Below, in pieces: positions 6,193 to 30,821 of a DNA stretch of 64,000 nucleotides. The DNA is from Thermovirga lienii DSM 17291 (GTDB lineage Bacteria; Synergistota; Synergistia; Synergistales; Thermovirgaceae). Numbering within the stretch: the first letter of the stretch is position 1; each line of letters begins with the position of its first letter. The notes beneath the pieces are model-generated. The model was not told the origin of the DNA. It did no database searches and saw only the letters and a program-made list of their open reading frames with translations. The stretch lies in the NCBI GenBank assembly GCA_000233775.1, contig CP003096.1:186001-250000 (forward strand). The letters are read 5' to 3'. The position numbers and the translations under genes were made by a program.

Positions 6193-8351
6193 GGTTTCAT
6201 CTCCTTATATTCCTTCCATGATTGAACAAAAATGCCCTCAAACTGGGGCGAAGCAAGGTTTTCTTCTATATATGCCATACCTTCATGGAACTTTGCCCTG
6301 CCTGCTGAGGCATAGCTTTCCTGTTCGGATAGACAGCTTTCTACACTTTGAGCCACGCCTATCTTAAGGTGTGGGTAGCTTGCCATTATGGTTTTTGCCC
6401 GTTTTGCTACATTTTGGGGGGTTGAGGAGTATATCATTACAGCTGCATACTCCAGGCCAGCATCCTCAAACCCAGGAGCTGTTACCCTTCCAAGTTCACC
6501 TTCCAGGTACCTGGGATGTATAGATAGGGAAACGGGTAAGGGCGAGGTCCTTGCTACGTCTTTTACCGTATCCACAAGTTTTTGGGCCAGCTCCTTTCTT
6601 TTGGCAGCGGCGCCGGGAAGGGAATCGGGCTCTATATCCAGATGAATCCCTCTGAAAGGAAAGGGGGACAAGCTTTTAACCAGCTTTAAAAGTTTAGGCC
6701 GTTCTTTTTCAAGCAGCCAGTTTGGATCTCCTAGCAAAAGATCAACAGTAATGCCCTGCCTGTGGCACTCTTCGATAAGGTCCCTAAGGGAAGCCTTCCC
6801 TTCAGGAGTTTCTAGGTATCTTAATTGTGTATTGTTAAAGGAAACGAGCATCCTTTTAAATCCCTCAAAGCGGAGGCGCTGTACCTCTTCTTTCCTGGTC
6901 TCTGCGTTCAGGAAGGGGGAAGGATCCCAGACATAGGCGGAAAGAAGCAGGGAGGGCTCCATCATATTGTCGTTAAGTGGGGTCAGAGAGCCTGAGTTAA
7001 CTTTCAACGGGAAATATCGGGTTTTATTTCCTCCGAGGGCCTCTAGGTCTGGCGGATAGGCAAAAACTGCAAGTTCCGCTTCGGTCTGCAGAAAGAGGCT
7101 TTGGGCATCTATAAGGTCTAGGGACGCCCGCAAGTAGCTGTAACGGCTTTTTAAGAGCTGCTCAAAGGTGTCTCCTGGAAGTTTGCTGTGTCTCAGGCTG
7201 TTTTCCCTTATGGCTTCCTCGGCTGACTGGAGTCGTCTTCCGTTTGCTTCTATGGATTTGAGGGCATACTCTCTCAACTTGAGGATCCTGGAAAGCTCCT
7301 CTTCCATTCTGATCTCCGCCGCCATGCGGTCCTGCTGTTCCTTTTTTAGGCTTTCCTCTGCCGCCAGCTTGAGAGGATCTTCTTCTTTGTTGAGAGCGTT
7401 GAATGGGTTTTTTATGGTTGCGGAGACATAAACCCCACTTCCCGCTCCCCCGGGAAAATCCTTTCCAGCGGATACGCCAAGCTCTATGGTTCCTTCTCGT
7501 TCAAGGTCTTCTGAAAGCTGGGCTATTTTGCCCTTAAGCTCCATCGCTTTGTCTCGGTAGTAAAGGTCAGCCAGACGAGGAATGTTGTCATAAAGGCTTT
7601 CTGTGTCCTTTTGGGGCCCAGGAAGTGTCGGAGCTTCACAGCTTTCAGGGATAGACCATCTCTTGCCCGTTGCCAGGCGAATAGCCCCAAGGGCCTGGTC
7701 TATTCGCATCTTTGAACTTTCCAGGTCCCTTTTGGCCATATCGAAGGCTGACATAAATTCCAGGCGGTCTGCCTCAAGGAGAAGGCCCTTTTCTTTCCTT
7801 TCCTTCAATATCTTCTCTGCTTCTTTTGCATCGGCAAGGAAGGCCTCTATGAGTCTTTCCTTCCTAAGTTCAGCCCATATGACTATGTACGCCTTCCGTA
7901 AGCTTGTGAGGGTCGTCTCCATGCTTTTGCGCAGAAGGGCTTCTCCTTTCAACCTTTCAAGCTCCGCCTTCAATAGGCGGATCTTCTCGCCGTTCCAAGT
8001 TCCCAGGATCGGGAAGGAAATTCCTCCAGTGACGGTGAGCTTCTGGTAGTGTATGTTTTCTTCGGAAGTTTCGCTCTCTGGTTCATCACTGTAGCCGTAG
8101 GTGGTTCGCAAGAAAAGGTCTGGTCCCATTCGGTCTTTCTCCGCTTCCAGTATGTAAGCGCTTTCGTTCAAGGCCGACATATATGTCAAAACCTCTGGGG
8201 ATTGGTGAATCATAGCCTCCAGCTTTTCCAAAGGAGGCAAAGGCTCAGCGTTTATGGGGCTGCAGAGGGCAACTTGGCTTGTGCAAAGAAGAACAGCCAA
8301 CACTATAATGCTAGTAATTAAACTAAAATCGGGGATCAACCTCTTCAACAT
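6189..8351 (-). CDS. TolC-like outer-membrane factor fused to a glycosidase-like TIM barrel
   Basis: 720 residues from ATG at 8351. That start has GAGGGG upstream and opens with a signal peptide (hydrophobic residues about 10-30, cleavage near VALCSP). An in-frame start farther upstream would add 49 residues before the signal and is unlikely. Residues about 40-450 are the paired long coiled helices of a TolC/OEP protein. Residues about 480-720 form a separate domain with LLLSAYVWDPSP, FKRMLVSF, GIHLDIEP (570-575, with Asp572 and Glu574 as candidate acids) and AVMIYSS. This pattern resembles glycoside-hydrolase-type TIM barrels of the GH18-like sort. A channel that carries its own sugar-cutting domain would suit polysaccharide export or trimming. 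The enzymatic role is inference. Confidence 0.75.
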   Translation of the reverse strand: MLKRLIPDFSLITSIIVLAVLLCTSQVALCSPINAEPLPPLEKLEAMIHQSPEVLTYMSALNESAYILEAEKDRMGPDLFLRTTYGYSDEPESETSEENIHYQKLTVTGGISFPILGTWNGEKIRLLKAELERLKGEALLRKSMETTLTSLRKAYIVIWAELRKERLIEAFLADAKEAEKILKERKEKGLLLEADRLEFMSAFDMAKRDLESSKMRIDQALGAIRLATGKRWSIPESCEAPTLPGPQKDTESLYDNIPRLADLYYRDKAMELKGKIAQLSEDLEREGTIELGVSAGKDFPGGAGSGVYVSATIKNPFNALNKEEDPLKLAAEESLKKEQQDRMAAEIRMEEELSRILKLREYALKSIEANGRRLQSAEEAIRENSLRHSKLPGDTFEQLLKSRYSYLRASLDLIDAQSLFLQTEAELAVFAYPPDLEALGGNKTRYFPLKVNSGSLTPLNDNMMEPSLLLSAYVWDPSPFLNAETRKEEVQRLRFEGFKRMLVSFNNTQLRYLETPEGKASLRDLIEECHRQGITVDLLLGDPNWLLEKERPKLLKLVKSLSPFPFRGIHLDIEPDSLPGAAAKRKELAQKLVDTVKDVARTSPLPVSLSIHPRYLEGELGRVTAPGFEDAGLEYAAVMIYSSTPQNVAKRAKTIMASYPHLKIGVAQSVESCLSEQESYASAGRAKFHEGMAYIEENLASPQFEGIFVQSWKEYKEMKP

Positions 8352-8469
8352 TCGCCACCCCTCTTGTTTTGCAAAAAATATATTAAAAAAATATTTTTTT
8401 GTAAAGCGTGTTATTGTTTTGTGTATAGGATTTGCTAAACTAAAAAAGTTAGTGGAGGGGGTGAAAGCT
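8352..8469. promoter_or_regulatory. Divergent promoter region between envelope cassette and Fe-S gene
   Basis: This AT-rich 118-bp gap separates two genes transcribed away from each other, so it must hold both promoters. It contains an imperfect inverted repeat, CAAAAAATAT with ATATTTTTTTG, around 8371-8400, and TTGTAA about 17 bases before TATAGG on the plus strand. These are candidates only; no regulator can be named. Confidence 0.35.
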
Positions 8470-9162
8470 TTGTCTTTTTTTGAGGAACTTAAAGACACGC
8501 TTATTGAAAATGGGGCCGCATTGGTTGGTTTTGCTGACCTTCATGATGTGACGCCTTATTCGGAGCTGCCCTACGGTATATCTATAGGCTTTGCCTTGGA
8601 TCCGGAGATTATAAGCGGTATTACAGACGGGCCAACCCATGAATACGCTAGGCTTTACGACCATGCCAACCGGTCCTTATGGAGCCTGGGAGCCTTGGCC
8701 GAGGAGATGATATTGTCGAAGGGTGGCAGGGTGAAAAATTTGCCGTCCACCATAGACAAAGTTCCTGAAAACTTGAGGACGGCCCTGCCACATAAGACCG
8801 TGGCCACCAAAAGCGGCCTTGGATGGATCGGAAAGTGCGCCCTTTTGATCACCAAGGAGTACGGTTCGGCTTTGAGATTCACTTCTTTGTTGACTGATCT
8901 TCCTCTTCCTGTTGGTGAGCCTATAACAGAATCTAGGTGCGGCGAATGCAGGGCCTGTCTGAAGGCTTGCCCTGTCACTGCGCCTTCTGGAAAGAATTGG
9001 AACAGCTCTTTCGAAAGAGAGGACTTTTTCAATGTATGGAAATGCTATGAAAAGACAAAAATTGAGGCTTCCAGACCCGAGATAGGCAAACTCATATGTG
9101 GGATGTGCATTGCTGCGTGCCCATATACAAAAGCTTACATAAAAAGAAGTGGCGCCAAGTAA
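8470..9162 (+). CDS. QueG-like double-cubane [4Fe-4S] protein
   Basis: 230 residues from a TTG start at 8470, chosen because GGAGGGGG ends eight bases before it; the GTG at 8461 would overlap that site. The protein resembles the core of epoxyqueuosine reductase: KSGLGWIGKCALLI (about 118-131), then two Fe-S motifs, CGECRACLKACP (about 157-168) and CGMCIAACP (about 213-221). It is shorter than typical QueG (300 residues or more) and lacks its C-terminal HEAT-like part, so it is better called a QueG-like paralogue. It would transfer electrons to an unknown acceptor in the cytoplasm. It lies 40 bases upstream of a diguanylate cyclase gene in the same direction, so the two probably share a transcript. 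Confidence 0.7.
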   Translation: MSFFEELKDTLIENGAALVGFADLHDVTPYSELPYGISIGFALDPEIISGITDGPTHEYARLYDHANRSLWSLGALAEEMILSKGGRVKNLPSTIDKVPENLRTALPHKTVATKSGLGWIGKCALLITKEYGSALRFTSLLTDLPLPVGEPITESRCGECRACLKACPVTAPSGKNWNSSFEREDFFNVWKCYEKTKIEASRPEIGKLICGMCIAACPYTKAYIKRSGAK

Positions 9163-10280: not shown

Positions 10281-10946
10281 ATGAAAGTTCCGACTATAGC
10301 TGATTTGGCTCTTGAAGAGATAAGGCAGATGATCCTTTCCGGCCAATTCAAGCCAGGCGAGAAGGTCAATATAGACAAGCTATCAAGAGACTTATCCATA
10401 AGCAAAACTCCCATAAGGGAGGCTTTAAAGGAGCTTGGAAGAGAAGGGCTTCTTTCCTATCAGGCCCGGGAGGGGTGGAGTGTAGCTTCCCACAGCCCTG
10501 AGGAATTTTCTCAGTTGGAAGAATTGCAGCAGGTCTTAAGGTCTTACATAGGAGCCAATATTTACAAGTTTGTAGATAATTTAGACTTTGACGAACTGGA
10601 GAACATAAACGACAACATCATACATTTCGTTAACACCAAGCAGTACGATAGGGCATTTTTGGAAAACGACAAATTTCACATGAAGATCTACGGAGCCCAT
10701 CCCAACAAGATAATTTTAGAACAGCTTCGCCAGGTCAATAATGCCATAGGCCTTCAAAGGCGTTTCATCCTAAAAAAATGCATAGAGAAAGACCCCAAAT
10801 TTTATTTGGACAACCTTAAAAAACAGCACAAAGAAATATTAGATTCCCTCAAGTCAAAGGATGCCCAACGTATCAAGGCTTCTTTTGATCACCACTTCGA
10901 GACCTTAAACGAGATGCTGAAAAGACAGATGGAGGAGGAATTATAA
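10281..10946 (+). CDS. GntR-family regulator, FCD subfamily
   Basis: 221 residues. The N-terminal winged helix (about 8-72) contains LEEIRQMILSGQFKPGEKV and LSISKTPIREALKELGREGL, the family hallmark. The C-terminal all-helical FCD domain (about 80-215) includes the metal/ligand His residues in NDKFHMKIYGAHPN and in DHHFETLN. A GGAGG site precedes the ATG. Such proteins bind an organic acid and control a neighbouring operon. The 19-bp palindrome directly upstream is the likely binding site. The next gene starts three bases after the stop, so the regulator is the first gene of the operon and probably controls itself. The ligand is unknown; an amino-acid-derived acid fits the neighbours. Confidence 0.88.
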   Translation: MKVPTIADLALEEIRQMILSGQFKPGEKVNIDKLSRDLSISKTPIREALKELGREGLLSYQAREGWSVASHSPEEFSQLEELQQVLRSYIGANIYKFVDNLDFDELENINDNIIHFVNTKQYDRAFLENDKFHMKIYGAHPNKIILEQLRQVNNAIGLQRRFILKKCIEKDPKFYLDNLKKQHKEILDSLKSKDAQRIKASFDHHFETLNEMLKRQMEEEL

Positions 10947-10949: not shown

Positions 10950-13805
10950 ATGACCCAGCCCATTTTTAACCCTTCCTACGGGCCCATGAGAGTTTTGGGG
11001 TATGCCTCTGGCTCAGGAGCCACACTGTTTAGGGCATTAGAAATGCAGAAAAAGCTTGAGCAGACCGACGAAGGCAGCCCCTTCCAAATAGTTGGTTTGT
11101 TTTCTGACAACCCTGACTCCAAGGCCGTTCAGCTGGCAAAAGAACTGAACATACCTGTAAAGACCCTGGATATCAGGCAGTTTTATAAGGAACACAATGC
11201 GCCCATAAAAGACAGGGAGGTTCGAAAGCTTTTCGACCAAAAAGCCTTGGAGCTTTGGGAAGACTTAAAGCCCCACCTTATATTGCTTGCCGGTTATGTT
11301 TGGGCCACAACAGAAGAAATTTTGGATGCCCTTCCAGTGGTCAACGTTCACCCAGCGGACCTTTCTGTTCAGAAAGACGGCAAGAGAGCATATGCTGGAG
11401 CTGATGGAGTAGGCGATGCCCTAAGGGCGGGAGAAAAACAGCTTAGGTCCTCGTCCCACTTGGCTACAAGTGAACTGGATGGAGGTCCCATACTCGTTAT
11501 CTCTCCTCCTGTCGATGTGATTCCAGCCGCGGAAGAGATGAGCTTCGAAGATTATAGAAAATATCATCTGAAACTCGTTAATGAGCAATCTCGGATCGTC
11601 GGGGCCAGGACAGTCTATGAGATAGCAATGGGACATTTCCAACTGGACAGCCAGGGCAAAGTCCTTTACAGGGGTGAGTATGTTCCTTTGGGGCTTAGGT
11701 TCGAAAGTTGGGACGAAAATAAGCCCCTTCCAGAGCGACCCCTTGAACCTCTTTATTCTCCTAAGAGCATTGCAGTAATTGGGGCCTCACAGAAGCTTGG
11801 AATAGGAAGGGCAGTTTTGGAGAACATAAAGACCTATGGTTTCAAAGGAGACCTGTTCGCTGTAAACAGGTCAAAAGAAGATGTCTCGGGAGCAAAAGGC
11901 TATAAAAGCGTAAAGGAAATTCCAAAAGAGCTGGATCTAGCCATGATGTGCATTCCTTCTTCAAAGGTGCTTGACGCGGTTCAGGAATGTGCCGAAAAAG
12001 GTGTAAAGGCCATTGTAGGGATAGCCGCCGGCTTCAAGGAAGTGGGCGAAAAAGGCGCCCTTTCGGAGAAGAAGCTTATGGAGATAGTAAACAGGGCAAA
12101 CATGCGCTTTTTGGGTCCCAACTGCATGGGGCTTTTGAATACCGATCCTAAAGTTAAGCTCCATGCCAACATCCTGCAGGGGCTGCCAAAAGAAGGAGGA
12201 GTAGCCTTCGTAACCCAAAGCGGTGCGATAGGGGCTGCCCTTTTGGATTATGCAGAAGAGCTCGGTTTGGGTTTTTCCCAGATCTATTCCACGGGGAACC
12301 AGGCAGATATAAACATAAATGACCTGCTTCCCGTCCTGGAAAAAGACGAGAGCACCAAGGTAGTGCTGTGCTATATGGAAACTTTGCCTGAGCCTGCCAG
12401 GTTCAGGAAAAACGCCCTATCCCTTACAAGGAAGAAGCCGCTGATAGTTATAAGATCCGGCAAGACCGAGGCGGGCATGATTGCGGCACAAAGCCACACC
12501 GGAAGCCTTGCTGGGGACAGTGCCATGATAGAAGCCATGATAGAGCAGGTAGGGGCAATAACGGCAAAGAGTCTGGAGGAGGCTTTCCTTTTGGCGGCCG
12601 CCCTGGAGAGCATGCCCCTTCCTAAGGGAAAAAGGGTTGGGGTTATCTCCAACGCAGGAGGGCCCGGCACATTGGTGGCAGATGCCCTTGCTGAAAGAGG
12701 GTTTGCCCTGCCTTTCCTTCCGGAGGATGCCCGTGCCCGCCTGGCGGAGAAAGTCCTTCCCGAGGCTTCAACAGGAAATCCCATAGATTTAGTGGCTACA
12801 GCTAGACCAGAGCATTATGCCTTGGCAGCTAAAGAGATGGTCCGTTCAGGACTTTACGATGCCTTGGTGGTAATAGTGGTTCCTCCTGCGACGGTGGATA
12901 CAGGTGAGGTCGCCCGCGCCATGCTGCCATACATCAAGGAATTTAATGGCCCCGTACTGTCGTGCTTCTTTGGGCCCAACCTTGGCAGGGATGGCCGCAT
13001 GGTGTTTCAAAAAGAAGGCATACCCTCATTCCCATTTCCAGAACAGACGGCAGAGGTTCTTTCCAAGATGGCCAAGATGGAGACTAGCTGCTTTCACCAC
13101 CAAGCTTGGCCGGACGCCCAAAGGCCTTCTCTATCTGTCAGGAAAGACATAAGGCGCACTTTGGGCAAGAACAAAGGCTTTTTGCCTCCTTTGCAGCTTA
13201 GGGACCTGCTTAATGAATATGGGATAAAGACCGTACCAACTTGGGGTTTGAGCGAAATTGGCTCTTTGGAAGGGATTTACAAAGAAGGAACCTCTTATGT
13301 GCTGAAGGTGGACCACCCGGAAATAATTCACAAGAGCGAAAGCGGCGGAGTGGTGCTCGGGATAAAGACGCTGAGGGAGCTCGAAGAGTCCATCGGCTTG
13401 ATGAAGAAACGCCTCCCCGGAGCAAGGGACCTTTTGGTTCAGGAAATGGCTTCTGGTGAAATGGAGATAATCCTTGGTGCGGTTAAAAAAGGATCTCTTG
13501 GGCATGCCGTCATGATGGGCCTTGGAGGGGTGGCAGTGGAGGTACTGAAGGACACTGTCCTTTTGCCAGTTCCCTTCTCTCCGGCTGAGGCCCATATAGC
13601 GCTTAGAAAGCTAAAGGCATGGCGTCTTATTTCAGGATATCGCGGCAAAAAGGGAGCAGATGTGGAAGAAATAGTCCAATGGCTTGGCAGTTTGGCCCGA
13701 TTGGTTCAGGACTTTCCGGAATTAAGCGAACTGGATATAAACCCTGTCATAGTTACTCCAGAAGGGCTTGTCGCCGTTGATTGGAGAGCTAGCTGGGAAT
13801 TTTAG
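10950..13805 (+). CDS. PurN-like formyltransferase fused to ADP-forming acyl-CoA synthetase
   Basis: 951 residues with two unrelated parts. Residues about 10-240 are a folate-dependent formyltransferase domain. GYASGSGATL matches the loop of PurN, and all three catalytic residues are present: Asn132 and His134 in VNVHP and Asp177 in ELDGGP. Residues about 268-951 are a complete NDP-forming acyl-CoA synthetase: a CoA-binding Rossmann domain starting SPKSIAVIGAS, the ligase domain with the phospho-His loop QSHTGSLAGD (His516), and a C-terminal ATP-grasp domain (about 715-951). The synthetase normally turns acyl-CoA, ADP and phosphate into acid, CoA and ATP. The fusion suggests that a formyl or one-carbon acyl group is passed to CoA and then cashed for ATP; that is inference. 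It is the second gene of the GntR-led operon. Confidence 0.82.
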   Translation: MTQPIFNPSYGPMRVLGYASGSGATLFRALEMQKKLEQTDEGSPFQIVGLFSDNPDSKAVQLAKELNIPVKTLDIRQFYKEHNAPIKDREVRKLFDQKALELWEDLKPHLILLAGYVWATTEEILDALPVVNVHPADLSVQKDGKRAYAGADGVGDALRAGEKQLRSSSHLATSELDGGPILVISPPVDVIPAAEEMSFEDYRKYHLKLVNEQSRIVGARTVYEIAMGHFQLDSQGKVLYRGEYVPLGLRFESWDENKPLPERPLEPLYSPKSIAVIGASQKLGIGRAVLENIKTYGFKGDLFAVNRSKEDVSGAKGYKSVKEIPKELDLAMMCIPSSKVLDAVQECAEKGVKAIVGIAAGFKEVGEKGALSEKKLMEIVNRANMRFLGPNCMGLLNTDPKVKLHANILQGLPKEGGVAFVTQSGAIGAALLDYAEELGLGFSQIYSTGNQADININDLLPVLEKDESTKVVLCYMETLPEPARFRKNALSLTRKKPLIVIRSGKTEAGMIAAQSHTGSLAGDSAMIEAMIEQVGAITAKSLEEAFLLAAALESMPLPKGKRVGVISNAGGPGTLVADALAERGFALPFLPEDARARLAEKVLPEASTGNPIDLVATARPEHYALAAKEMVRSGLYDALVVIVVPPATVDTGEVARAMLPYIKEFNGPVLSCFFGPNLGRDGRMVFQKEGIPSFPFPEQTAEVLSKMAKMETSCFHHQAWPDAQRPSLSVRKDIRRTLGKNKGFLPPLQLRDLLNEYGIKTVPTWGLSEIGSLEGIYKEGTSYVLKVDHPEIIHKSESGGVVLGIKTLRELEESIGLMKKRLPGARDLLVQEMASGEMEIILGAVKKGSLGHAVMMGLGGVAVEVLKDTVLLPVPFSPAEAHIALRKLKAWRLISGYRGKKGADVEEIVQWLGSLARLVQDFPELSELDINPVIVTPEGLVAVDWRASWEF

Positions 13806-18499: not shown

Positions 18500-18853
18500 T
18501 TGACCAGGAAGATGTTAAAGTCGAAGATACACAGGGCCACTGTAACAGAGGCGGATCTTAATTACGAAGGAAGCATAACCATAGACGAATCCTTGATGGA
18601 GATGGCAGATATACTGGAATTCGAGCAGGTTAACGTATGGAACATCAACGCAGGCACCAGGTTTACAACCTATGCCATGAAGGGAGAGCGCGGCAGCGGG
18701 ATCATATGCGTAAACGGCGCCGCGGCGAGGCTCGTTTCCGTTGGAGACTTGGTGATAATAGCAAGCTGGAAGGACGTAAGCGACGAGGAGGCAAAGTCGC
18801 ACGAACCGAAGATAGTATTCGTGGACGAAAACAACAGGCCAAAGGAGTCGTAG
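18500..18853 (+). CDS. panD: Aspartate 1-decarboxylase precursor
   Basis: 117 residues, the normal PanD length. The start is TTG at 18500, which gives [20 protein letters not shown]. The self-cleavage site is Gly24-Ser25 in NYEGSIT; Ser25 becomes the pyruvoyl group. The conserved [14 protein letters not shown] and [14 protein letters not shown] stretches follow. The enzyme makes beta-alanine from aspartate for pantothenate and CoA synthesis. It stands alone between a terminator and the microcompartment regulators; no other pan genes are in the window. CoA demand of the neighbouring acyl-CoA pathways may explain the position, but that is speculation. Confidence 0.95.
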
Positions 18854-18886: not shown

Positions 18887-20119
18887 ATGGATGGAGCGGG
18901 GATGTACAGAGAGGGAACTTTAGAGTGGTGGAGGTACGTTGTAGATGTCGATGCCCTTGAGGGGATCGTAGAGAATTTTGCTGTGTCCAATAACTATGCC
19001 GCCATATTGACTACGCCGGAAGGGACACCTGTCACTAAACCCTGTAATTTCTCAAATTTCTGTAGAATAATGAGATCCATGGATGGAGGAAAAAGGTGTC
19101 GCAAAAGCGACGCGGAAGGCGGCAGAAAGGCCATAACCTCTGGAGATGTGAAGATATATACCTGCCATGCCGGGTTGATAGACATGGCGGTTCCCATAAT
19201 GCTGAGCGAGGATAAGACCGTTGGCATATTGTTAATGGGGCAGGTTAAGCTTAGAGAATACACCAATAAAGAAGTTCAAGAGCTAGCTGCTAGGTTTTGG
19301 CGTTTTGACTACGGGGAACGGAAGAAACTAATAGAAAGTTTCCTTAAGATACCTGTTGTAGATGAAGAACAGCTCAGAAGAAGCGCCATGCTTTTGAAGC
19401 TAGTGGCTTCCCACATAGTGACTATATGTGAGAAACACTTGTCCGAGAGAAAGTTCCTGGAAAAAGGGATAACCATAATGAAGAGAAAAGTGAACAAGGA
19501 AGCCCTCGAAAGGAACTTGAAACAGGCCCAGGTCAGGTCTTTGCAAAACAAGTTAAACCCGCACTTTATCTTTAACACCCTGAACGTGATCTCTCGTTTG
19601 GCTATGTTTGAGGGGGCCAAGCAGACCCAGGAGCTGACGATAAAATTTGCCGAGTATTTACGCTACGTCTTAGGAAAGCAAAAACGTGGGAATTTCGTCA
19701 TGCTGAAGGACGAGCTGGATTGTGTCAGGTGTTTCTTGGATATATATAAATCCAGGTTTGGGGAGAGGCTATCCTTTGAGATAGAGGCAGAGCCCGAGAC
19801 GTTGGACGTCTTTGTCCCGTTCATGCTTTTGCAGCCGGTGGTGGAAAATGCCGTAGTTCATGGTGTGGAACCATCTGTAAAACCTGCTTGCGTTACTATA
19901 AAAAGTTGCATAAGGGATGACCTTTTATACCTAACCGTAAAGGACGACGGGGTAGGATGTGACACAGAAAAGCTCAAAAAGGGGCTTGGACTCAGTAATC
20001 TAGAAGAAAAAGTGAGGTTATATTTCAAAGAGAAGGCTGACATAGCCTTCAAAAGCACCCCAAACGAAGGGACAGAGGTTCAGATAGTGATCCCTATAAT
20101 CAAGGAAGGGGAAAGATGA
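18887..20119 (+). CDS. PocR-domain sensor histidine kinase (LytS type)
   Basis: 410 residues. Residues about 15-185 form a PocR ligand-binding domain with conserved cysteines 53, 59, 71 and 93 and ending in VGILLMGQV. A coiled linker (about 195-220) leads to a His_kinase (LytS-type) domain with the phospho-acceptor His226 in LNPHFIFNTLN. An HATPase domain (about 300-405) carries ENAVVHG and GLGLSNL. No membrane segment is visible, so the sensor is cytoplasmic. PocR domains are known from propanediol/glycerol regulators, matching the diol microcompartment downstream. The start could also be ATG at 18902, which has GGAG upstream. The stop overlaps the response-regulator start by four bases. Confidence 0.88.
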   Translation: MDGAGMYREGTLEWWRYVVDVDALEGIVENFAVSNNYAAILTTPEGTPVTKPCNFSNFCRIMRSMDGGKRCRKSDAEGGRKAITSGDVKIYTCHAGLIDMAVPIMLSEDKTVGILLMGQVKLREYTNKEVQELAARFWRFDYGERKKLIESFLKIPVVDEEQLRRSAMLLKLVASHIVTICEKHLSERKFLEKGITIMKRKVNKEALERNLKQAQVRSLQNKLNPHFIFNTLNVISRLAMFEGAKQTQELTIKFAEYLRYVLGKQKRGNFVMLKDELDCVRCFLDIYKSRFGERLSFEIEAEPETLDVFVPFMLLQPVVENAVVHGVEPSVKPACVTIKSCIRDDLLYLTVKDDGVGCDTEKLKKGLGLSNLEEKVRLYFKEKADIAFKSTPNEGTEVQIVIPIIKEGER

Positions 20120-21717
20120 CTTCCAAAAAACTCAGCAAGTACAAACTTTTGATAGTTGAAGACGAACCAATAGAGAGCAAGGCTGTAAGGTTTGTGTTGG
20201 GAAAAGCCTTTGGTAACCTGTTTGAGGTCAAGGAAGCCAACGATATTTTTTCTTTTGAAGAAATAGCGCTTAACTGGCTGCCAGATATAGTTCTGTTGGA
20301 TATTCGGGTCCCAGGCGGCAATGGGTTATCTCAACTTAAGAAGTTGAGGGAAGAGGGCTTTGGCGGAGAGGTCATAGTCACTACTGCTTACGATGTCTTT
20401 GAATATGCCCAGGAAGCGGTAGAGTTAGGTGTGAGCTCTTTTTTGGTCAAGCCTGTTTCGGACGGCAAGCTTGTCGAGGCGATAAATAGTGTCGTCAAGA
20501 CCATAGAAGATAAGAAACAAGCTTTTGCTGAGAGCGACAAGATAAAGGATTTCGTTTCGAGAAATAAAGGAATTTTCGTATATGCAGCTTTGCAGGATCT
20601 GGTCAAACACAACAGGCTCGACAAAGACATAGAGATGGTCTTTTCCGCCCTCAAACTACCTCCTGTAAACCCCTGTGTGGTTTTAGGTGTTGCGTGCTTC
20701 AGCAGTTTTGACCCTGCGGGAGGCGGTTTAATTCATTTTTGGCGAGAGTTGGAAGGGGTCTTTGAGGACGGAGTTGTTGTGCCGTGGGGAGATTTTTGCT
20801 TCTTAGTGATGGTGCCCGCCCTGCAGGGAAGAGAAAGCGTGTCCTTTGAAGATATGGGGCTGAAGCTTCTTGGGCATCTTTCCTCTAGAGGCCTTAAATC
20901 TAATGTCATATGTGGTGGATATATCGCCGATTTGCGTAAGATGCCGAAAGTTATATCCCAGCTGGAGGAGGTCGTAGAGGAGAGCCTTTTTAAGGGTTTT
21001 GGGCAGGTTGTATTGTGCGATGATTCAGCGGAGAAAAAAGAAAATGAAACCGATCCACTAGCCCTCGAAAGTGATGGGCACAAGTCTTTCAACTATCTAG
21101 TAGATGGCTTTCTTAAAAACGACAGCAAGCTGGTTGCCGATAGCATTGAGGCCATAAATTCTTTTGCGGGAGAAATCGCGCTGAAGAATCTTGGGATGGC
21201 CAAGATGATTGCTTTGGGAATCTTGGGGCAGCTTCTGAGGTTGTTCATAGAGCTAAAGTGCGATTTTTCCATGATGAGAGAGTGGGCGAATAAGCAGATT
21301 CTAAATTTTCTCGGCGCTTCCAACCCTAAAGAGCTGAACAAGGCTTTCTCTCAGGCGATATTGAGTTCCTGGACGATCAGGAACAGCGCAGCGGATGAGT
21401 CGGCTATCATAGTGCAGCAGGTTCTGTCCTACATAAGGTCCCATTATGAGGACGTCACACTGCAAAGTGCCGCAGATTATGCCAACGTCAGCCCATCATA
21501 TTTGAGCAGGCTCTTTAAAAAATCTCTCAATAAGAGGTTCATAGATGTGGTAAAAGAAGAAAAAATAGAAAGAGCAAAGATATTGCTTTCTCAAGGCCTG
21601 TCTGTCAGGGACACCGCTTTGATGGTAGGATATGGGAACATAAATTACTTCAGCATCCTTTTCAAGCAGCTTACCGGCGAAAGCCCCTCGGAGTACGCTA
21701 AGAGGCACTCTTATTAA
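20116..21717 (+). CDS. Response regulator with AraC-type DNA-binding domain
   Basis: 533 residues. The N-terminal receiver (about 8-130) has the acidic pair in IVEDEP (about 15-16), the phospho-acceptor Asp62 in VLLDIRVPGG, a Thr/Ala switch in VTTAYD and Lys in FLVKPVS. A roughly 280-residue middle part is of the YesN type. The C-terminal AraC double helix-turn-helix (about 430-530) includes NVSPSYLSRLFKKSLNKRF and VGYGNINYFSILFK. It is translationally coupled to the kinase gene. It is the obvious activator of the microcompartment operon that begins 170 bases downstream, where A-rich direct repeats lie at helical spacing. The target assignment is inference. Confidence 0.93.
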   Translation: MTSKKLSKYKLLIVEDEPIESKAVRFVLGKAFGNLFEVKEANDIFSFEEIALNWLPDIVLLDIRVPGGNGLSQLKKLREEGFGGEVIVTTAYDVFEYAQEAVELGVSSFLVKPVSDGKLVEAINSVVKTIEDKKQAFAESDKIKDFVSRNKGIFVYAALQDLVKHNRLDKDIEMVFSALKLPPVNPCVVLGVACFSSFDPAGGGLIHFWRELEGVFEDGVVVPWGDFCFLVMVPALQGRESVSFEDMGLKLLGHLSSRGLKSNVICGGYIADLRKMPKVISQLEEVVEESLFKGFGQVVLCDDSAEKKENETDPLALESDGHKSFNYLVDGFLKNDSKLVADSIEAINSFAGEIALKNLGMAKMIALGILGQLLRLFIELKCDFSMMREWANKQILNFLGASNPKELNKAFSQAILSSWTIRNSAADESAIIVQQVLSYIRSHYEDVTLQSAADYANVSPSYLSRLFKKSLNKRFIDVVKEEKIERAKILLSQGLSVRDTALMVGYGNINYFSILFKQLTGESPSEYAKRHSY

Positions 21718-21725
21718 GTAAACCA

Positions 21726-21820
21726 GTCAAAAAAACAAAGATTTTAAGCAAAAAAACGAGTGCTATACAAATTAAACTTTTCTTTCTCTTTCCCCCTTTT
21801 AATTGGTCAAAAAAATAAGA
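21726..21820. promoter_or_regulatory. Candidate AraC-type direct-repeat sites before the microcompartment operon
   Basis: CAAAAAAAC occurs at 21728 and again at 21749, exactly 21 bp (two helical turns) apart. CAAAAAAAT follows at 21808, 80 bp from the first. The first and third share the longer form GTCAAAAAAAYAA. Tandem direct repeats at two-turn spacing are typical for dimeric AraC-family activators. They lie between the response-regulator stop and the first shell gene. Because the repeats are A-rich, chance similarity cannot be excluded. Confidence 0.45.
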
Positions 21821-21886
21821 CCTCCTTTAATTGAAGCCTTCCTACTGTTGTGAGAACATAACCGTTGGGAGGAGAGAGGGGGTCTG

Positions 21887-22225
21887 GTGGTGGAGAAAGC
21901 CAGGGTCATTCAAGAATATGTTCCAGGCAAGCAGATTACTCTTGCCCATATCATAAGGAACCCGCGCAAAGAGCTGTGCGAGAAGATAGGGATTGATCAT
22001 CAAGGTGCGATAGGCATACTCACCATTACCCCTGGCGAAGGATCAATTATAGCCGCAGACATTGCCTCCAAGTCAGCCTCGGTGCGAGTAGAGTTCGTCG
22101 ACCGCTTTACAGGTTGTCTTTTGATCAGCGGTGATGTCTCTTCAGTCGAAAATTCCCTCCGAAGCATAGTGGCCTTTTTCGGGTCGAAGCTTCTTTTCTC
22201 TTCTACAGAGGTGACCTTCTCATGA
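21887..22225 (+). CDS. pduU: Microcompartment shell protein, PduU/EutS type
   Basis: 112 residues from GTG at 21887 after a GGGAGGAGAG site. It has the circularly permuted BMC fold of PduU/EutS: an N-terminal RVIQEYVPGKQITLAHI strand that builds the small beta barrel, then IGILTITPGEGSIIAADIA. This hexamer forms a shell tile with a capped centre. It is the first gene of the operon and overlaps the next start by four bases. In Salmonella pduU and pduV are also adjacent near the end of the operon; here the pair stands first. Confidence 0.85.
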   Translation: MVEKARVIQEYVPGKQITLAHIIRNPRKELCEKIGIDHQGAIGILTITPGEGSIIAADIASKSASVRVEFVDRFTGCLLISGDVSSVENSLRSIVAFFGSKLLFSSTEVTFS

Positions 22226-22677
22226 CGAGAAGGGTGATGGTTGTGGGAAGAACTGGTGTAGGGAAGACTACTCTTCTGGAAAAGTTGGGGCTTTTGAACT
22301 CGGCGGTCAAGAAAACCGAAAGCGTTGAGTTCGCTCCTCAGTTCATAGACACTCCCGGTGAATTTATGGAAATGTCCAGATTCTATCATGCCCTCATCAC
22401 TTCCTCCACTAAGGCCGATGTCGTCTTGCTGGTAGTTGATGCTTCCAATCCTGGACAGCTACCTCCAGGCATATCCAAGGCTTTCGCTGCCCCTGTTTTG
22501 GGGTGTGTTAACAAGATAGACCTTTTGTGTGGCGATTGTGAGGAAAAAGTTGATAATGCCCGGAAAAAGTTGTTGGAAGCTGGGGTTGAGGAGGTGTATG
22601 CCGTATCTGCCAAAGAAGGGATAGGAGTAAGGGAACTCAAGGAAAAAATAGAAGAAATTTTATGGAGGTGCGCATGA
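22222..22677 (+). CDS. pduV: PduV/EutP-type small GTPase
   Basis: 151 residues. The Walker A motif GRTGVGKT (about 8-15), an IDTPGE stretch (about 39-44, switch II) and NKIDLL (about 93-98) define a P-loop GTPase. EutP/PduV proteins are tied to microcompartments; PduV has been linked to movement of the particles, and EutP was reported to have acetate kinase activity, so the role is uncertain. The start overlaps pduU by ATGA, and the next shell gene begins within two bases of the stop. Confidence 0.85.
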
Positions 22678-22678
22678 C

Positions 22679-22957
22679 ATGAACGGAGAAGCTTTGGGTT
22701 TGATTGAGACCAGAGGGTTAGTGGGTTGTATCGAGGCTGCAGATGCCATGGTGAAAGCCGCAAACGTTAGACTGGTCGGCTACGAGAAGATTGGCTCTGG
22801 TTACGTCACCGTGATGGTCAGGGGAGATGTTGGAGCTGTAAAGGCCGCAGTTGACGCGGGACTTGCTGCAGCCAAAAAGGTTGGAGAAGTTGTTTCTGTA
22901 CATGTAATCCCAAGGCCGCATTCTGACACGGAAAAGATCCTTCCCAAGTTGGACTAA
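22679..22957 (+). CDS. pduA: BMC-H hexameric shell protein, PduA/PduJ type
   Basis: 92 residues, one BMC domain: [20 protein letters not shown] at the start, [18 protein letters not shown] (pore loop region), and [11 protein letters not shown] at the end. It is nearly the same length as PduA and closely related to the second copy at 29802. Hexamers form the main shell facets and a small pore for the diol. The two paralogues differ mainly at the KIGSG versus KLSGAG pore segment, so their pores may differ in selectivity. Confidence 0.92.
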
Positions 22958-23001
22958 TTGCGTTCTTGAGCATTTGAGCTTTGGAAAAGGGGGTTAGGGG
23001 A

Positions 23002-23808
23002 ATGGACCAGGAATTGATGGGAAAAGTGATGGAAGAAGTAATGAAGAGGCTTTCCGTTGCGGAAGAGCCCAAGAAGAAAGAAAGCCCAGCTCCAGCTTCA
23101 TGTTGTGAAGCATTGTCGGCGGCTGGGGTTACAGAGTTTGTCGGTACAGCTATGGGCGATACCATCGGGCTTGTTATAGCCAACCTTGAGAGCCGCATTC
23201 TTGAGAAGTTTGGTTGGGATCCGAAATACAGGTCCATAGGGATCATCTCCGACCGCGTAGGTGCAGGCCCTCAGATAATGGCAGCTGACGAGGCGGTTAA
23301 AGCCACCAACACCGAAGTGGTGCTTTTGGAGCTTCCAAGAGACACCAAAGGAGGGGCAGGCCACGGCTGTTTGATCCTCCTTGGCGCAGAAGACGTTTCC
23401 GATGCTCGCAGGGCTGTGGAAGTGGCCCTTAAAGACCTTGAGAGGACCTTCGGCGACGTCTATGCCAACGATGCCGGACACCTGGAGTTTCAGTATACCG
23501 CCAGGGCGAGCTACGCATGCAATAAGGCCTTTGGAGCCCCCCTTGGTAAGGCTTTTGGCCTTATCGTAGGTGCCCCTGCCGGAATAGGTGTGGTCATGAC
23601 CGATGCAGCTTTGAAGGCTGCAGAGGTGGAGATGCTCTTCTACAGCACGCCCACCAATGGCAATACCTATACCAATGAGGTTGTAATGGGCGTCACCGGC
23701 GATTCGGGGGCTGTAAGGCAGTCATTGATCGCGGCCCGCGAAGTGGGTCTCAAGTTGTTAGGAGCATTTGGTGAGCCTCCCAAATCTCTTACCAAACCAT
23801 ACATCTAA
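23002..23808 (+). CDS. pduB: BMC-T trimeric shell protein PduB
   Basis: 268 residues from ATG at 23002, which follows GGGGGTTAGGGG; an upstream TTG frame would add seven residues without support. The N-terminal helix MDQELMGKVMEEVMKRL and linker (about 1-40) resemble the extension that ties the shell to the enzymatic core in PduB. Two fused BMC domains follow (about 45-265), with ending REVGLKLLGAFGEPPKSL. In Salmonella a second start yields the shorter PduB'; a comparable internal start is not clear here. It forms pseudohexameric trimers in the shell. Confidence 0.92.
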   Translation: MDQELMGKVMEEVMKRLSVAEEPKKKESPAPASCCEALSAAGVTEFVGTAMGDTIGLVIANLESRILEKFGWDPKYRSIGIISDRVGAGPQIMAADEAVKATNTEVVLLELPRDTKGGAGHGCLILLGAEDVSDARRAVEVALKDLERTFGDVYANDAGHLEFQYTARASYACNKAFGAPLGKAFGLIVGAPAGIGVVMTDAALKAAEVEMLFYSTPTNGNTYTNEVVMGVTGDSGAVRQSLIAAREVGLKLLGAFGEPPKSLTKPYI

Positions 23809-23845
23809 GGCCGTACAGGCTTTGGTTATTGGGAGGTGAGCGCAA

Positions 23846-25519
23846 ATGGCGGAAAAGAAAAGAAGTAAGCGTTTTCAGACCTTAGAGAACAGGCCGGTCC
23901 ACAAGGATGGGTTTATAGGGGAATGGATAGAAACTGGTTTGATCGCCATGGGAAGCCCCAACGACCCAACACCCTCCGTCAAGGTTAGCGACGGAAAAAT
24001 AGTGGAAATGGACGGCAAAAGACGAGAAGACTTTGACATGATAGACCAGTTCATAGCAGATTACGCCATAGATGTCTCCATAACAGAAGAGGCTATGGCA
24101 AAGTCAGATGTGGAACTTGCAAGAATGCTCGTCGATATAAACACTCCAGCTGAAGAAGTCAGAAAGGTCTTTGGAGGACTGACGCCTGCGAAACTAGCAT
24201 CGGTAGTAGATAAGCTGAACATAGTTGAAATAATGATGGCCATGCAGAAGATGCGGGTCAGGCAGACGCCGAAAAACCAGGCTCACGTCACTAGCGCTAC
24301 AGACAACCCCGTGATGCTGGCCTGCGACGCTGCAGAAGCAGCTTACAGAGGATTTGCCGAGATAGAGACCACGGTTGCCGTGTTTAAGTACGGTCCTCTT
24401 AACGCTCTATCTTTGTTGGTTGGGTCCCAGGTTGGCCGTCCCGGAGTGTTGACTCAGGATGCACTGGAAGAATCCTTTGAGCTTGAGATAGGCATGAGAG
24501 GTCTTACGGCCTACGCGGAGACCGTCTCTGTCTATGGTACGGAGAGCGTATTTGTAGATGGCGACGATACGCCGTGGTCGAAGGCCTTTTTGGCTTCGTG
24601 CTACGCCAGCAGGGGCATAAAGATGAGGTTCACCAGCGGTACAGGAAGTGAAGTCCAGATGGGAGCCGCAGAGGGCAAGAGCATGCTTTACCTGGAAGCC
24701 CGCTGCATCCTTATAACCAAGGGTGCGGGAGTCCAGGGGCTGCAGAACGGCTCCATTTCCTGCATAGGTGTTCCAGGCGCTGTCCCGAGCGGCCTTAGAG
24801 CTGTAGCTGCGGAGAACCTTTTGACCATGGCTATGGGCATGGAGGTCGCTTCTGGTAACGACCAAACCTTCTCGCACTCTGACCTGCGCCGCACAGCAAG
24901 GACCATACCTCAGTTCTTCCCCGGAACGGACCTTATCTTCTCAGGATATTCTGCTGTTCCCAACTGCGACAACATGTTTGCCGGGTCCAACTGGGACATA
25001 GAGGACATAGACGATTACCTTGCCCTGCAGCGAGATTTCAAGGTAGACGGTGGCGTTCGCCCTGTGTTGGAGGAAGACGTAATTGCGGTGAGGAACAAGG
25101 CAGCGAGGGCCCTTCAGGCCGTTTACGAGGAACTTGGGTTCCCCCCGATCACCGATGAAGAAGTGGAAGCAGCCACTTATGCCAACACCAGCAAGGATGT
25201 CCCACCAAGGAATATTCCAGAGGACCTGAAAGCTGCTGACAGGATCATGAAAGAGGGAATAACCGGTGTGGACGTTATAAAGGCGTTGGCTAAACGGGGT
25301 TACAGGGATGTAGCGGAAGCCATTTTGATGATGATGAAGCAGCGCATCTCTGGGGACTATCTCCAGACCTCTGCTTGGATCGATGAAAACGGCTACGTTT
25401 GGAGCGCGATCAACGATCCTAACACTTATCAAGGACCTATGACAGGTTATCAGATGAGCCCTGAGCGTTGGGAAGAGATAAAGAATATTCCTTGGGCGAT
25501 AAGGGCAGAGGACGTTTAA
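23846..25519 (+). CDS. pduC: B12-dependent diol/glycerol dehydratase, large subunit
   Basis: 557 residues, the usual length for PduC (about 554). The whole chain aligns with PduC/DhaB1: KRSKRF at the N-terminus, KMRVRQTP, QVGRPGVLTQ, VYGTESVFVDGDDTPWSKAF, GVQGLQNGS and SNDQTF-like GNDQTFSHSD. The Ser in NGSISCIG is as I recall for diol dehydratases, where the Klebsiella glycerol enzyme has Ala. This hints at 1,2-propanediol as substrate, though glycerol may also be used. The adenosylcobalamin enzyme turns the diol into an aldehyde inside the shell. GGGAGGTGAG precedes the ATG. It is followed by the medium and small subunits. Confidence 0.95.
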   Translation: MAEKKRSKRFQTLENRPVHKDGFIGEWIETGLIAMGSPNDPTPSVKVSDGKIVEMDGKRREDFDMIDQFIADYAIDVSITEEAMAKSDVELARMLVDINTPAEEVRKVFGGLTPAKLASVVDKLNIVEIMMAMQKMRVRQTPKNQAHVTSATDNPVMLACDAAEAAYRGFAEIETTVAVFKYGPLNALSLLVGSQVGRPGVLTQDALEESFELEIGMRGLTAYAETVSVYGTESVFVDGDDTPWSKAFLASCYASRGIKMRFTSGTGSEVQMGAAEGKSMLYLEARCILITKGAGVQGLQNGSISCIGVPGAVPSGLRAVAAENLLTMAMGMEVASGNDQTFSHSDLRRTARTIPQFFPGTDLIFSGYSAVPNCDNMFAGSNWDIEDIDDYLALQRDFKVDGGVRPVLEEDVIAVRNKAARALQAVYEELGFPPITDEEVEAATYANTSKDVPPRNIPEDLKAADRIMKEGITGVDVIKALAKRGYRDVAEAILMMMKQRISGDYLQTSAWIDENGYVWSAINDPNTYQGPMTGYQMSPERWEEIKNIPWAIRAEDV

Positions 25520-25532
25520 AGGGGGTGAAACT

Positions 25533-26201
25533 ATGGTTTCTCTGAATGAAGAAGTTATTCGCAAGGTCATAGCTGAAGTTTTAGCTGAAATGGCTCCTTC
25601 CTCTCCAACAGCGAAAAAGGCAGAAAGCCTTTCGGTGCCTAAAGCTGCTTCGTCCATGAGACTGGTGGAGAAGGGCAAGGCTGAAAAAAGTTCCGACCCT
25701 AAGGATGTGGTCATTGGCATCTCTCCAGGGTTTGGAGTTGGTTTTAACGAGACTATAGTTGGCACCCCGCACTCTGAAGTGTTAAGGCAGCTTATGGCGG
25801 GAATAGAGGAAGAGGGGCTGAAGCCGAGGATAGTAAGGGTGCTGCATACCTGTGATGTGGCTTTTATAGGCAAGAAAGCGGCGGAGCTTGCCGGGTCTGG
25901 TATAGGTATAGGGGTGCTTTCCAGAGGAACGGCAGTCATTCACCAAAAGGACCTGCCTCCCCTTGGAAACCTGGAGCTATTCCCTCAGTCGCCGCTTTTG
26001 GATCCTGAGACGTTCCGTGCAATAGGCCGTAACGCTGCAAAGTATGCCAAAGGCGAGAGTCCCGTGCCTGTTCCCACCAAGAACGATCCTATGGCGAGAC
26101 CTCGCTACCAAGGTTTGGCAGCCCTTCTACACAACAAGGAGATGCGGTTTGTCGATCCTAAAAAGGGTCCGGTAGAAATTGAAGTTGCCGTTGATAGATG
26201 A
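25533..26201 (+). CDS. pduD: Diol dehydratase, medium subunit
   Basis: 222 residues. The N-terminal helix EEVIRKVIAEVLAEM plus a flexible linker (about 1-45) is an encapsulation-peptide-like extension, as known for PduD. The conserved core has VVIGISPGFGVGF, GTPHSEVLRQLMAGIEEEG and RGTAVIHQKDLPPL. The subunit contributes to cobalamin binding in the C-D-E complex. AAAGGGGGTG precedes the ATG. The gene lies 13 bases from pduC and 13 bases before the preferred pduE start. Confidence 0.94.
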   Translation: MVSLNEEVIRKVIAEVLAEMAPSSPTAKKAESLSVPKAASSMRLVEKGKAEKSSDPKDVVIGISPGFGVGFNETIVGTPHSEVLRQLMAGIEEEGLKPRIVRVLHTCDVAFIGKKAAELAGSGIGIGVLSRGTAVIHQKDLPPLGNLELFPQSPLLDPETFRAIGRNAAKYAKGESPVPVPTKNDPMARPRYQGLAALLHNKEMRFVDPKKGPVEIEVAVDR

Positions 26202-26214
26202 GGGGGTGCTAGGA

Positions 26215-26745
26215 ATGGCTATGGAGTTGAATGAACAGCTTATAGCGGAGCTTGTGAGAAAGACATTGAAAGAGGTCATGGGATCGGCTAATGCTCCTAC
26301 AGATGCTACCCCTACGGGTGAAAAGAGCAAAAACAACCTGAAGGTAGAGGATTATCCTCTTGCTTCTAAAAGGCCAGAGCTTCTAAAGACGCCTACAGGC
26401 AAAGCTATTGAAGACGTAAATTTGGATAACCTTTTGAGCGGCAAGGTGGGCTTTGAAGATTTGCGTATTACTCCTGAGGCTCTGGAGTATCAGGCCCAGA
26501 TCGCTGAAGCTGCTGGCAAGGAGCAGGTCGCAATGAACCTGAGAAGGTCTGCAGAGCTTATAAAGGTCCCCGATAAGAGGTTGCTGGAGATATATAACGC
26601 CCTGCGACCCCGCAGGTCCACGAAGCAGGAACTTTTAGACATAGCTGATGAGCTGGAGAGCAAGTACAACGCAGTGGTTAACGCCAGGATGGTTAGAGAA
26701 GCTGCGGACGTATATGAGCGCAGGGGATTACTGAAGAGCGCCTAA
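26215..26745 (+). CDS. pduE: Diol dehydratase, small subunit
   Basis: 176 residues from ATG at 26215 with AGGGGG upstream; an earlier in-frame TTG at 26179 would overlap pduD and lacks a site. The N-terminal amphipathic helix (MELNEQLIAELVRKTLKEVM) resembles a targeting peptide. The conserved part contains YPLASKRPELLKTPTGK, RRSAELIKVPD, IYNALRPRRSTK and ARMVREAADVYERRGLL, all typical of PduE. It completes the dehydratase heterotrimer. Confidence 0.94.
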   Translation: MAMELNEQLIAELVRKTLKEVMGSANAPTDATPTGEKSKNNLKVEDYPLASKRPELLKTPTGKAIEDVNLDNLLSGKVGFEDLRITPEALEYQAQIAEAAGKEQVAMNLRRSAELIKVPDKRLLEIYNALRPRRSTKQELLDIADELESKYNAVVNARMVREAADVYERRGLLKSA

Positions 26746-26769
26746 TTAAAGACTAACTAAGGAGGGGTT

Positions 26770-28638
26770 ATGGTGCCCATAGTGGCTGGCATTGACATAG
26801 GAAACTCGACCACAGAGGTTGCTTTGGGTAAGGTGGAAAACGGTCAGGTGGAATTTTTATCCTCCTCTTTGTATCAGACCACTGGTCTTAAGGGGACAAC
26901 CCAGAACGTAAGGGGCGTAAAGATGGCCCTGGGGTTGGCCTTGGAGAAGATAGGCTTTGGCAGGGAAGATTTTTCAAAGATAGATGTAATCTGCATAAAT
27001 GAAGCCGCCCCTGTCATAGGCGATGTGGCCATGGAAAATATAAGTGAGACCATAGTGACCGAATCCACCATGATAGGCCATAACCCCTCAACGCCAGGCG
27101 GCGTAGGGGTAGGAAAAGGCAGGACCGTTCATATTGATGACCTGTTGAACGTGGAGAAAAATGATCCTGTTATAGTGGTGATTCCCTCCAATTGGGACTA
27201 TGAAGCTGCGTCAGAGGCAATAAACAGAGCGATAGAAAAGGGGATTTCTGTGGAGGGCGCCATATGCCAGGGGGACGACGGAGTCCTCATAGCCAACCGC
27301 ATCAACAAGGTCATACCCATAGTAGATGAAGTAATGTCCATAGAAAAGGTTCCTCTTGGGATGTATGCCTGCGTGGAAGTGGCTCCTCCTGGGAGGGTCA
27401 TAGAGGCGCTTTCTAACCCTTACGGCATAGCTACTATTTTTTCCCTTTCGCCAGAGGAGACCAAACATGTCGTTCCCGTGGCCAGGGCCTTGATAGGCAA
27501 CCGCTCTGCTGTGGTCATAAAGACGCCCACCGGTGAGGTCAAGGAAAGGCGAATACCTGCCGGGGAGCTTTACATTGATGGGGCCTCAGGAAGGAGGACC
27601 GTCAATGTGGAAAGCGGCGCAGAGGCAATAATGAAAGTTTTGGAAGAGAGCCAGCCTGTCAAGAACATATTTGGCCAACCTGGCACCAACGTGGGAGGAA
27701 TGATGGAGAGGGTAAGGAGGACCATGTCCAACCTTACTGGGCTTCCGGTCGCAGATATCCACATAAAGGATCTTTTGGCGGTGGACACCTTGGTCCCTCA
27801 GAGGGTCGTAGGGGGGATAGCCGGCGAGTTTTCCCAGGAACACGGGGTAGCCTTGGCTGTGATGGTGGAGACGGAGAAGCTGCCCATGACCCAGCTGGCT
27901 GAGGCTATTTCCCAGGAGACTGGTGTTAAGGTCATGATCGGTGGAGTCGAGGCGGAGATGGCCGTAAGGGGAGCCCTTACCACTCCAGGAACGAAAAAGC
28001 CTCTTGCTATTTTGGATTTGGGAGCAGGAAGCACCGATGCATCTTTGATGAAAGAAAACGGTGAAATTGACCTTATCCACCTTGCTGGTGCCGGGAATAT
28101 GGTCAACACCATAATAGCCAGCGAGCTGGGCATAGAGAGTATGGAACTGGCAGAGTCCATCAAGCGTTACCCCCTATGTAAGGTTGAAAGTCCCTTCCAC
28201 GTAAGGCAGGAGGACGGAAGGGTTAGGTTTTTCGATAACCCCTTGTCGCCCAACCTCTTTGGAAAGAACGCCCTCGTTGTAGAAGACGACATACTGATGC
28301 CTCTGGAACTGGATATTCCTGTGGAGAGGATAAGGGAAATAAGGCGCAGGGCCAAAAGGGAAGTGTTTGTTACCAATTCCTTGAGGGCGCTTGAGAGGGT
28401 GTCCCCGGCTGGCAACGTGAGGCTTTTGGATTACGTTGTCCTTGTCGGAGGGTCTGCCTTGGACTTTGAGATTCCGTCGATGATAACCGACGCCCTTTCC
28501 AGGTTTGGCGTAGTGGCTGGCCGAGGAAACATAAGGGGAACTGAGGGACCCCGCAATGCGGTGGCTACAGGGCTAGTTTTGGGGTTTGCCAGTAAGGGGC
28601 TGCCGGTGAAATGGCTGAGCGGAGCGCGGAGGGCCTAG
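26770..28638 (+). CDS. pduG: Diol dehydratase-reactivating factor, large subunit
   Basis: 622 residues, close to PduG/DdrA (about 610). An ASKHA-type ATPase: AGIDIGNSTTEVAL (about 5-18), the swiveling-domain stretch with GAICQGDDGVLIANRI, and a second phosphate motif ILDLGAGSTDASL (about 415-427), then VVLVGGSALDFEIP near the end. It uses ATP to pull damaged cobalamin out of the dehydratase so that a new cofactor can bind. GGAGGGG precedes the ATG. The partner small subunit follows four bases after the stop. Confidence 0.94.
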   Translation: MVPIVAGIDIGNSTTEVALGKVENGQVEFLSSSLYQTTGLKGTTQNVRGVKMALGLALEKIGFGREDFSKIDVICINEAAPVIGDVAMENISETIVTESTMIGHNPSTPGGVGVGKGRTVHIDDLLNVEKNDPVIVVIPSNWDYEAASEAINRAIEKGISVEGAICQGDDGVLIANRINKVIPIVDEVMSIEKVPLGMYACVEVAPPGRVIEALSNPYGIATIFSLSPEETKHVVPVARALIGNRSAVVIKTPTGEVKERRIPAGELYIDGASGRRTVNVESGAEAIMKVLEESQPVKNIFGQPGTNVGGMMERVRRTMSNLTGLPVADIHIKDLLAVDTLVPQRVVGGIAGEFSQEHGVALAVMVETEKLPMTQLAEAISQETGVKVMIGGVEAEMAVRGALTTPGTKKPLAILDLGAGSTDASLMKENGEIDLIHLAGAGNMVNTIIASELGIESMELAESIKRYPLCKVESPFHVRQEDGRVRFFDNPLSPNLFGKNALVVEDDILMPLELDIPVERIREIRRRAKREVFVTNSLRALERVSPAGNVRLLDYVVLVGGSALDFEIPSMITDALSRFGVVAGRGNIRGTEGPRNAVATGLVLGFASKGLPVKWLSGARRA

Positions 28639-28642
28639 AAGG

Positions 28643-29176: not shown

Positions 29177-29178
29177 CG

Positions 29179-29769: not shown

Positions 29770-29801
29770 GAAAGAGCCGTTAAGAGATGGGAGGGTTTTT
29801 G

Positions 29802-30807: not shown

Positions 30808-30821
30808 ATGGGGGATAGATC

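Follow-up and report, generated by a model that had tools for sequence, protein, structure and literature searches.

The locus described here raises the question of why a formyltransferase domain should be carried on the same polypeptide as an ATP-making CoA synthetase, and in which pathway such a protein would act. As a rule, different enzymes handle the one-carbon units carried by folate and those carried by CoA, and to our knowledge HypX is the main known bridge between them. The window analyzed is a stretch of 64,000 nucleotides, bases 186001-250000 of the main contig of the 2.0-Mb genome of Thermovirga lienii DSM 17291, and all positions given below are counted from its first base.

A single unbroken open reading frame on the plus strand extends from an ATG at 10950 to a stop at 13805 and encodes a protein of 951 amino acids. 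The N-terminal domain, approximately residues 1-250 (10950-11699, plus strand), matches Formyl_trans_N (PF00551) over residues 14-192 with an E-value of 7.7e-13 and 49 bits against a cut-off of 26.1. The remainder of the protein comprises a CoA-binding domain (CoA_binding_2, PF13380, residues 272-397; 11763-12140, plus strand), a flavodoxin-like ligase domain with Glu477 and the phospho-acceptor His516 (Succ_CoA_lig, PF13607, residues 415-552; 12192-12605, plus strand), and an ATP-grasp domain with a second histidine, His794 (ATP-grasp_5, PF13549, residues 740-946; 13167-13787, plus strand), each scoring above its curated Pfam cut-off. The AlphaFold2 model of the whole fusion had a pLDDT of 86.9 and a pTM of 0.84, while the N-terminal domain modelled alone had a pLDDT of 93.1 and its best PDB matches were PurN structures (TM-score up to 0.87 by target length). 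In a profile search with the same domain the only convincing matches were PurN and PurU chains, and HypX was not matched. These results confirm that one chain combines a formyltransferase domain of the PurN fold with a complete ADP-forming acyl-CoA synthetase (ACD), the architecture recognized in the initial annotation. The fusion does not reach the curated cut-offs of the ACD equivalog models and falls, at 67.8 bits, under the threshold of 150.1 of the NCBIfam PurN equivalog TIGR00639. Elsewhere in the same genome a 220-aa frame, the size of PurN, gives a stronger PF00551 match of 186.8 bits.

The C-terminal part of the fusion model aligned with the single-chain ADP-forming CoA synthetase 8wzu, a 4-hydroxybutyrate:CoA ligase, at a TM-score of 0.91 by target length. 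This enzyme, Ca. Korarchaeum ACD1 (4xyl) and DddX (7cm9) share with the fusion the order of CoA-binding, ligase and ATP-grasp domains and the conserved phospho-histidine, glutamate and second histidine, whereas the N-terminal formyltransferase domain is found in the fusion only. Glu477, His516 and His794 were conserved in every alignment row covering them, bearing out the earlier description of the synthetase as complete with phospho-His516. HypX likewise joins a formyltransferase-fold domain to a CoA-handling domain, retaining the catalytic His and Asp and lacking the triad Ser, but its partner domain is enoyl-CoA hydratase/isomerase-like where that of the fusion is an ATP-making synthetase. 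Membership in the HypX family was rejected on the basis of the ACD nature of the C-terminal part, the nearest relationship to PurN and the lack of a HypX profile match.

The initial annotation had suggested a survey of conservation and neighbours, and a scan of GTDB genomes yielded 35 further fusion loci. Hosts belong to Synergistota, Bacillota, termite-gut Spirochaetes, Cand. Adiutrix and Cand. Sumerlaeota, including Oscillospiraceae, Lachnospiraceae/Cuneatibacter, Acidaminobacter, Soehngenia, and termite-gut Treponema and Spirochaetaceae. Within the phylum of the window's organism, matches running from the N-terminal domain into the ACD were found in 14 of 188 genomes, the window's own included; the other fusions of the phylum are 50-56% identical to the window protein and two of them are cut short. 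Chance or misassembly is excluded, because the fusion recurs in 35 other independent loci and in these 14 matches that start in the N-terminal domain. In one genome of the phylum (L093, G159:C81, approximately 11444-12214) the N-terminal domain occurs as a separate 257-aa frame, which may be a split gene, a frameshift or a fragment. In the class of Acidaminobacter, a search of 391 genomes recovered the fusion of the starting genome only, so the gene is rare in that class, and such patchy occurrence suggests horizontal spread. In a tree the synthetase parts of the fusions formed one clade (31/31, support 0.93) apart from stand-alone ACDs, and at the level of sequence comparison the fusion is shown to be old and of single origin. 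Mean identity was 56% for the N-terminal domain and 52% for the ACD, with a correlation of 0.91 over pairs; being as conserved as the ACD, the N-terminal domain is not a passenger. A search of the open-access literature found no paper describing the fusion, and within that literature the claim that it was unreported stands.

In the window the fusion is the second of four genes in an operon whose intergenic gaps measure 3, 23 and 1 bp. A GntR/FCD-type regulator (Pfam GntR and FCD; 10281-10946, plus strand) comes first, and the fusion is followed by an HMGL-like (DRE-TIM) gene for a predicted metal-dependent lyase (PF00682; 13829-15055, plus strand) and by a class I aminotransferase (PF00155; 15057-16214, plus strand), whose best PDB match is the aromatic aminotransferase 1dju. 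Next to the operon lies an amino-acid importer of the neurotransmitter:sodium symporter family (PF00209; 16301-17671, plus strand), which is present in 12 loci. Further downstream, an aspartate 1-decarboxylase (PanD) gene at 18500-18853 is located between the symporter and the regulators of a microcompartment locus. That B12-dependent diol/glycerol dehydratase locus (18887-35426) lies just downstream of the fusion operon and encodes the large subunit, a reactivase, BMC shell proteins, an EutP/PduV GTPase, a PocR-type sensor kinase, an AraC-type response regulator and an aldehyde dehydrogenase; orthologues of some of its genes also flank the fusion cluster of locus L040.

Neighbourhoods of the window and the 35 further loci were mapped by tblastn. 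An HMGL-like orthologue lies within 10 kb of the fusion in 31 of the 36 loci, spanning several phyla. Five loci have no such orthologue, but in three of them (L048, L053 and L064) the sequence breaks off near the fusion; the other two are L036 and L059. In L036 (Cand. Sumerlaeota) there is no HMGL gene within 10 kb and the fusion is followed by a chlorohydrolase/deaminase-type amidohydrolase, so that the enzyme may serve another purpose there. Within the phylum, 14 genomes hold both the fusion and an HMGL orthologue of 59-73% identity, counting G159 with its split or fragmentary fusion; as exceptions, one genome has only the fusion, on a truncated contig, and one has only the HMGL gene. Loci L040 and L041 each have two HMGL paralogues and one fusion, as if several lyases fed a single fusion enzyme. 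Regulators were of the GntR-FCD or XRE-cupin type, with GntR orthologues upstream of the fusion in most Synergistota loci. The remaining neighbours fall into two sets. The first consists of an aminotransferase and, in most cases, a sodium:amino-acid symporter; the second combines a dehydrogenase of the D-2-hydroxyacid or short-chain type with a TRAP transporter or two. An aminotransferase is present in half of the loci, mostly accompanied by an amino-acid symporter, and many loci have the hydroxy-acid import set without amino-acid genes. Since the two gene sets are interchangeable and even the aminotransferases come from two unrelated families, a 2-oxo acid is the likely common point. Comparison of the TRAP binding protein, dehydrogenase and aminotransferase with solved structures gave broad matches only, the aminotransferase being nearest an aromatic aminotransferase. 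Five Bacillota loci (L043, L047, L050, L055 and L057) also carry an ordinary stand-alone ACD at approximately 6200-8500, between the HMGL-like gene and the aminotransferase, and thus hold two such synthetases each.

The HMGL-like partner shares the DRE-TIM fold family, metal ligands and 2-oxo-acid residues with 2-isopropylmalate, homocitrate and methylthioalkylmalate synthases, and scores about equally on the isopropylmalate and homocitrate synthase models, below all cut-offs. In an alignment of 32 partner sequences with methylthioalkylmalate synthase 6e1j as reference, the Arg-Asp-Gln of RDGEQ, the Thr and both HxH metal ligands were kept in all 32. Unlike in those synthases, the Glu-His-Tyr Claisen relay was lost in all 32, with Glu227 replaced by Ala or Ser, His388 by Pro, and Tyr399 by Asp, Asn or Glu. 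In the plant methylthioalkylmalate synthase the E227A and H388A substitutions abolish activity (PMC11532901). With the metal and 2-oxo-acid site kept and the relay for acetyl-CoA enolisation gone, a lyase or aldolase appears likelier than a synthase. An acetyl-CoA-dependent synthase, including one in a malyl-CoA-type glycolate pathway (PMC6313629), was considered and is disfavoured by the missing Claisen relay.

Unfused HMGL relatives (37-44% identity) adjoin 2-hydroxyacid dehydrogenases, LarA-type racemases and TRAP transporters, in one case an HpaI-type aldolase with malic enzyme, and elsewhere acetate-kinase-family and galactarate-dehydratase-like genes. Several lie beside aldehyde:ferredoxin oxidoreductases, which point to an aldehyde product. 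Unfused loci with catabolic neighbourhoods of their own are L110, L112, L113, L111, L114, L117, L119 and L089, and the Claisen glutamate is missing in the three unfused proteins checked (L089, L091 and L085). The unfused HMGL-like genes probably constitute an under-recognised lyase family.

Taken with this context, the fusion is tentatively interpreted as the terminal enzyme, and the one that conserves energy, in an undescribed fermentation module. An importer would bring in an amino acid or a 2-hydroxy acid, and the aminotransferase or dehydrogenase would convert it into a 2-oxo acid. The HMGL-like enzyme would bind the 2-oxo acid at its metal and cleave it by lyase- or aldolase-type chemistry, with no condensation with acetyl-CoA. 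The fusion would then handle the fragment. Its N-terminal domain would move a formyl unit between tetrahydrofolate (THF) and an acceptor attached to CoA, probably a thiol, and the ACD half would convert a CoA thioester into acid and ATP via phospho-His516. Formyl-THF is available in the window's genome, which encodes both FolD and formate-THF ligase (Fhs). Whether the thioester would be formyl-CoA itself, or another acyl-CoA that the N-terminal domain formylates or deformylates, is among the least certain points. The order of steps, the use of folate, the thiol acceptor and the direction all belong to what we infer here. More doubtful is the fuller proposal of a new substrate-level phosphorylation, in which a metal-dependent lyase splits 2-oxo acids derived from amino acids or hydroxy acids, while a single protein passes the one-carbon fragment from folate to CoA or back and obtains ATP from formyl-CoA or a sister thioester.

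The nature of the acceptor was considered from active-site residues in 35 family sequences. PurN is glycinamide ribonucleotide formyltransferase, and its acceptor is an amine. The N-terminal domain of the fusion resembles PurN in fold, sequence profile, catalytic His and Asp, an Asn in most members and the SGxG loop, and differs in that PurN has the HxSLLPxxxG motif and the Asn, while the fusion family has HPADL with an insertion, a variable Asn and an attached ACD. The initial annotation described Asn132 and His134 (11343-11351, plus strand; PurN Asn106 and His108 positions) and Asp177 (11478-11480, plus strand; PurN Asp144 position) as intact, which holds for the window protein. His134 and Asp177 are invariant (35/35), but position 132 holds Asn in 25 of the sequences and Gly in the other 10, so that Asn132 is no fixed part of the catalytic machinery. 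The Gly always goes with a change of His170 to Tyr (25 Asn/His pairs, 10 Gly/Tyr pairs). It is therefore unlikely, though PurN as the nearest family formylates an amine and the aminotransferase loci with their amino-acid symporters would suit such a substrate, that the N-terminal domain is an amine formyltransferase (or, in reverse, deformylates to THF) acting on a CoA-bound amino compound in an N-formyl-acyl-CoA pathway, with the ACD making or breaking the CoA ester. Amine formyltransferases require the Asn, a position at which the hydrolase domain of FDH carries Ile (PMC4388273), and many of the loci import a 2-hydroxy acid without any amino-acid genes.

Other substitutions bear on whether the N-terminal domain is catalytic at all. 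The HxSLLPxxxG motif, common to PurN, Fmt, ArnA and FDH (PMC4388273), is absent from the family, being replaced by HPADL with an insertion before YAG in 35 of 35 aligned sequences, and an almost invariant LAGYVWATT stands where PurN has LAGFMRIL. Both changes would suit an arrangement in which the ACD half alone is catalytic, releasing acid and ATP from an acyl-CoA of the pathway, while the N-terminal domain senses folate or another metabolite or acts on something other than 10-formyl-THF. This arrangement is nonetheless improbable, as His134 and Asp177 never vary, the N-terminal domain evolves no faster than the ACD, and the Asn/His pair changes in a coordinated manner, as in a working active site. 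Where FDH uses a His-Ser-Asp triad, HypX lacks the Ser and uses an extra Asp instead (PMC6802093); in the fusion family the lost triad Ser corresponds to Ala136, and Asp137 is invariant at a spacing different from that of HypX Asp80. The lost Ser and dispensable Asn resemble formyltransferases of the thiol or hydrolase type and, to judge from residues, would be compatible with a thiol (CoA) acceptor, which is suggestive only.

The initial annotation had gone further and proposed an energy step in which 10-formyl-THF and CoA yield formyl-CoA, and formyl-CoA, ADP and phosphate then yield formate and ATP, or the reverse; it is considered here as a free-standing step, independent of the neighbouring genes. 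The conserved catalytic His and Asp, the full set of ACD residues, the thiol-compatible site and the precedent of HypX, which passes a formyl group from folate to CoA (PMC6802093), keep formyl-CoA chemistry possible for the fusion. As a self-contained step the scheme is nevertheless quite improbable. Fhs, an unrelated protein that achieves the same overall conversion (formyl-THF + ADP + Pi to formate + ATP), occurs in 28 of 33 fusion genomes, the window's own among them, the N-terminal domain is PurN-like and not HypX-like by both sequence profile and fold, and the constant HMGL and 2-oxo-acid context would be left unexplained. The fusion as a replacement for Fhs was rejected for the same co-occurrence. 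An annotation accident, in which an ordinary acetate:CoA ligase carries an irrelevant N-terminal attachment, is extremely improbable: the ACD domains are indeed approximately 30% identical to ordinary archaeal and bacterial ACDs, but the fusion forms a single clade across several phyla with a conserved operon partner.

The fermentation module also has points against it. The PurN relatives use an amine as formyl acceptor and have retained a similar phosphate-loop region, and the folate motif HxSLLP is missing family-wide. In addition, Fhs makes a route between formyl-THF, formate and ATP redundant in most genomes, L036 lacks the HMGL gene and five Bacillota loci carry an extra ACD. Both halves of the fusion come from known fold families, and there is a real chance that the pathway itself is new. 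The HMGL-like partners delineate a DRE-TIM subfamily whose members are likely to be wrongly annotated as homocitrate or isopropylmalate synthases. If the module is as proposed, the formyltransferase-ACD fusion would link folate and CoA by a second bridge, one that conserves energy, and the linked lyase and importers would turn an odd protein into a testable degradation module of gut, termite and digester anaerobes.
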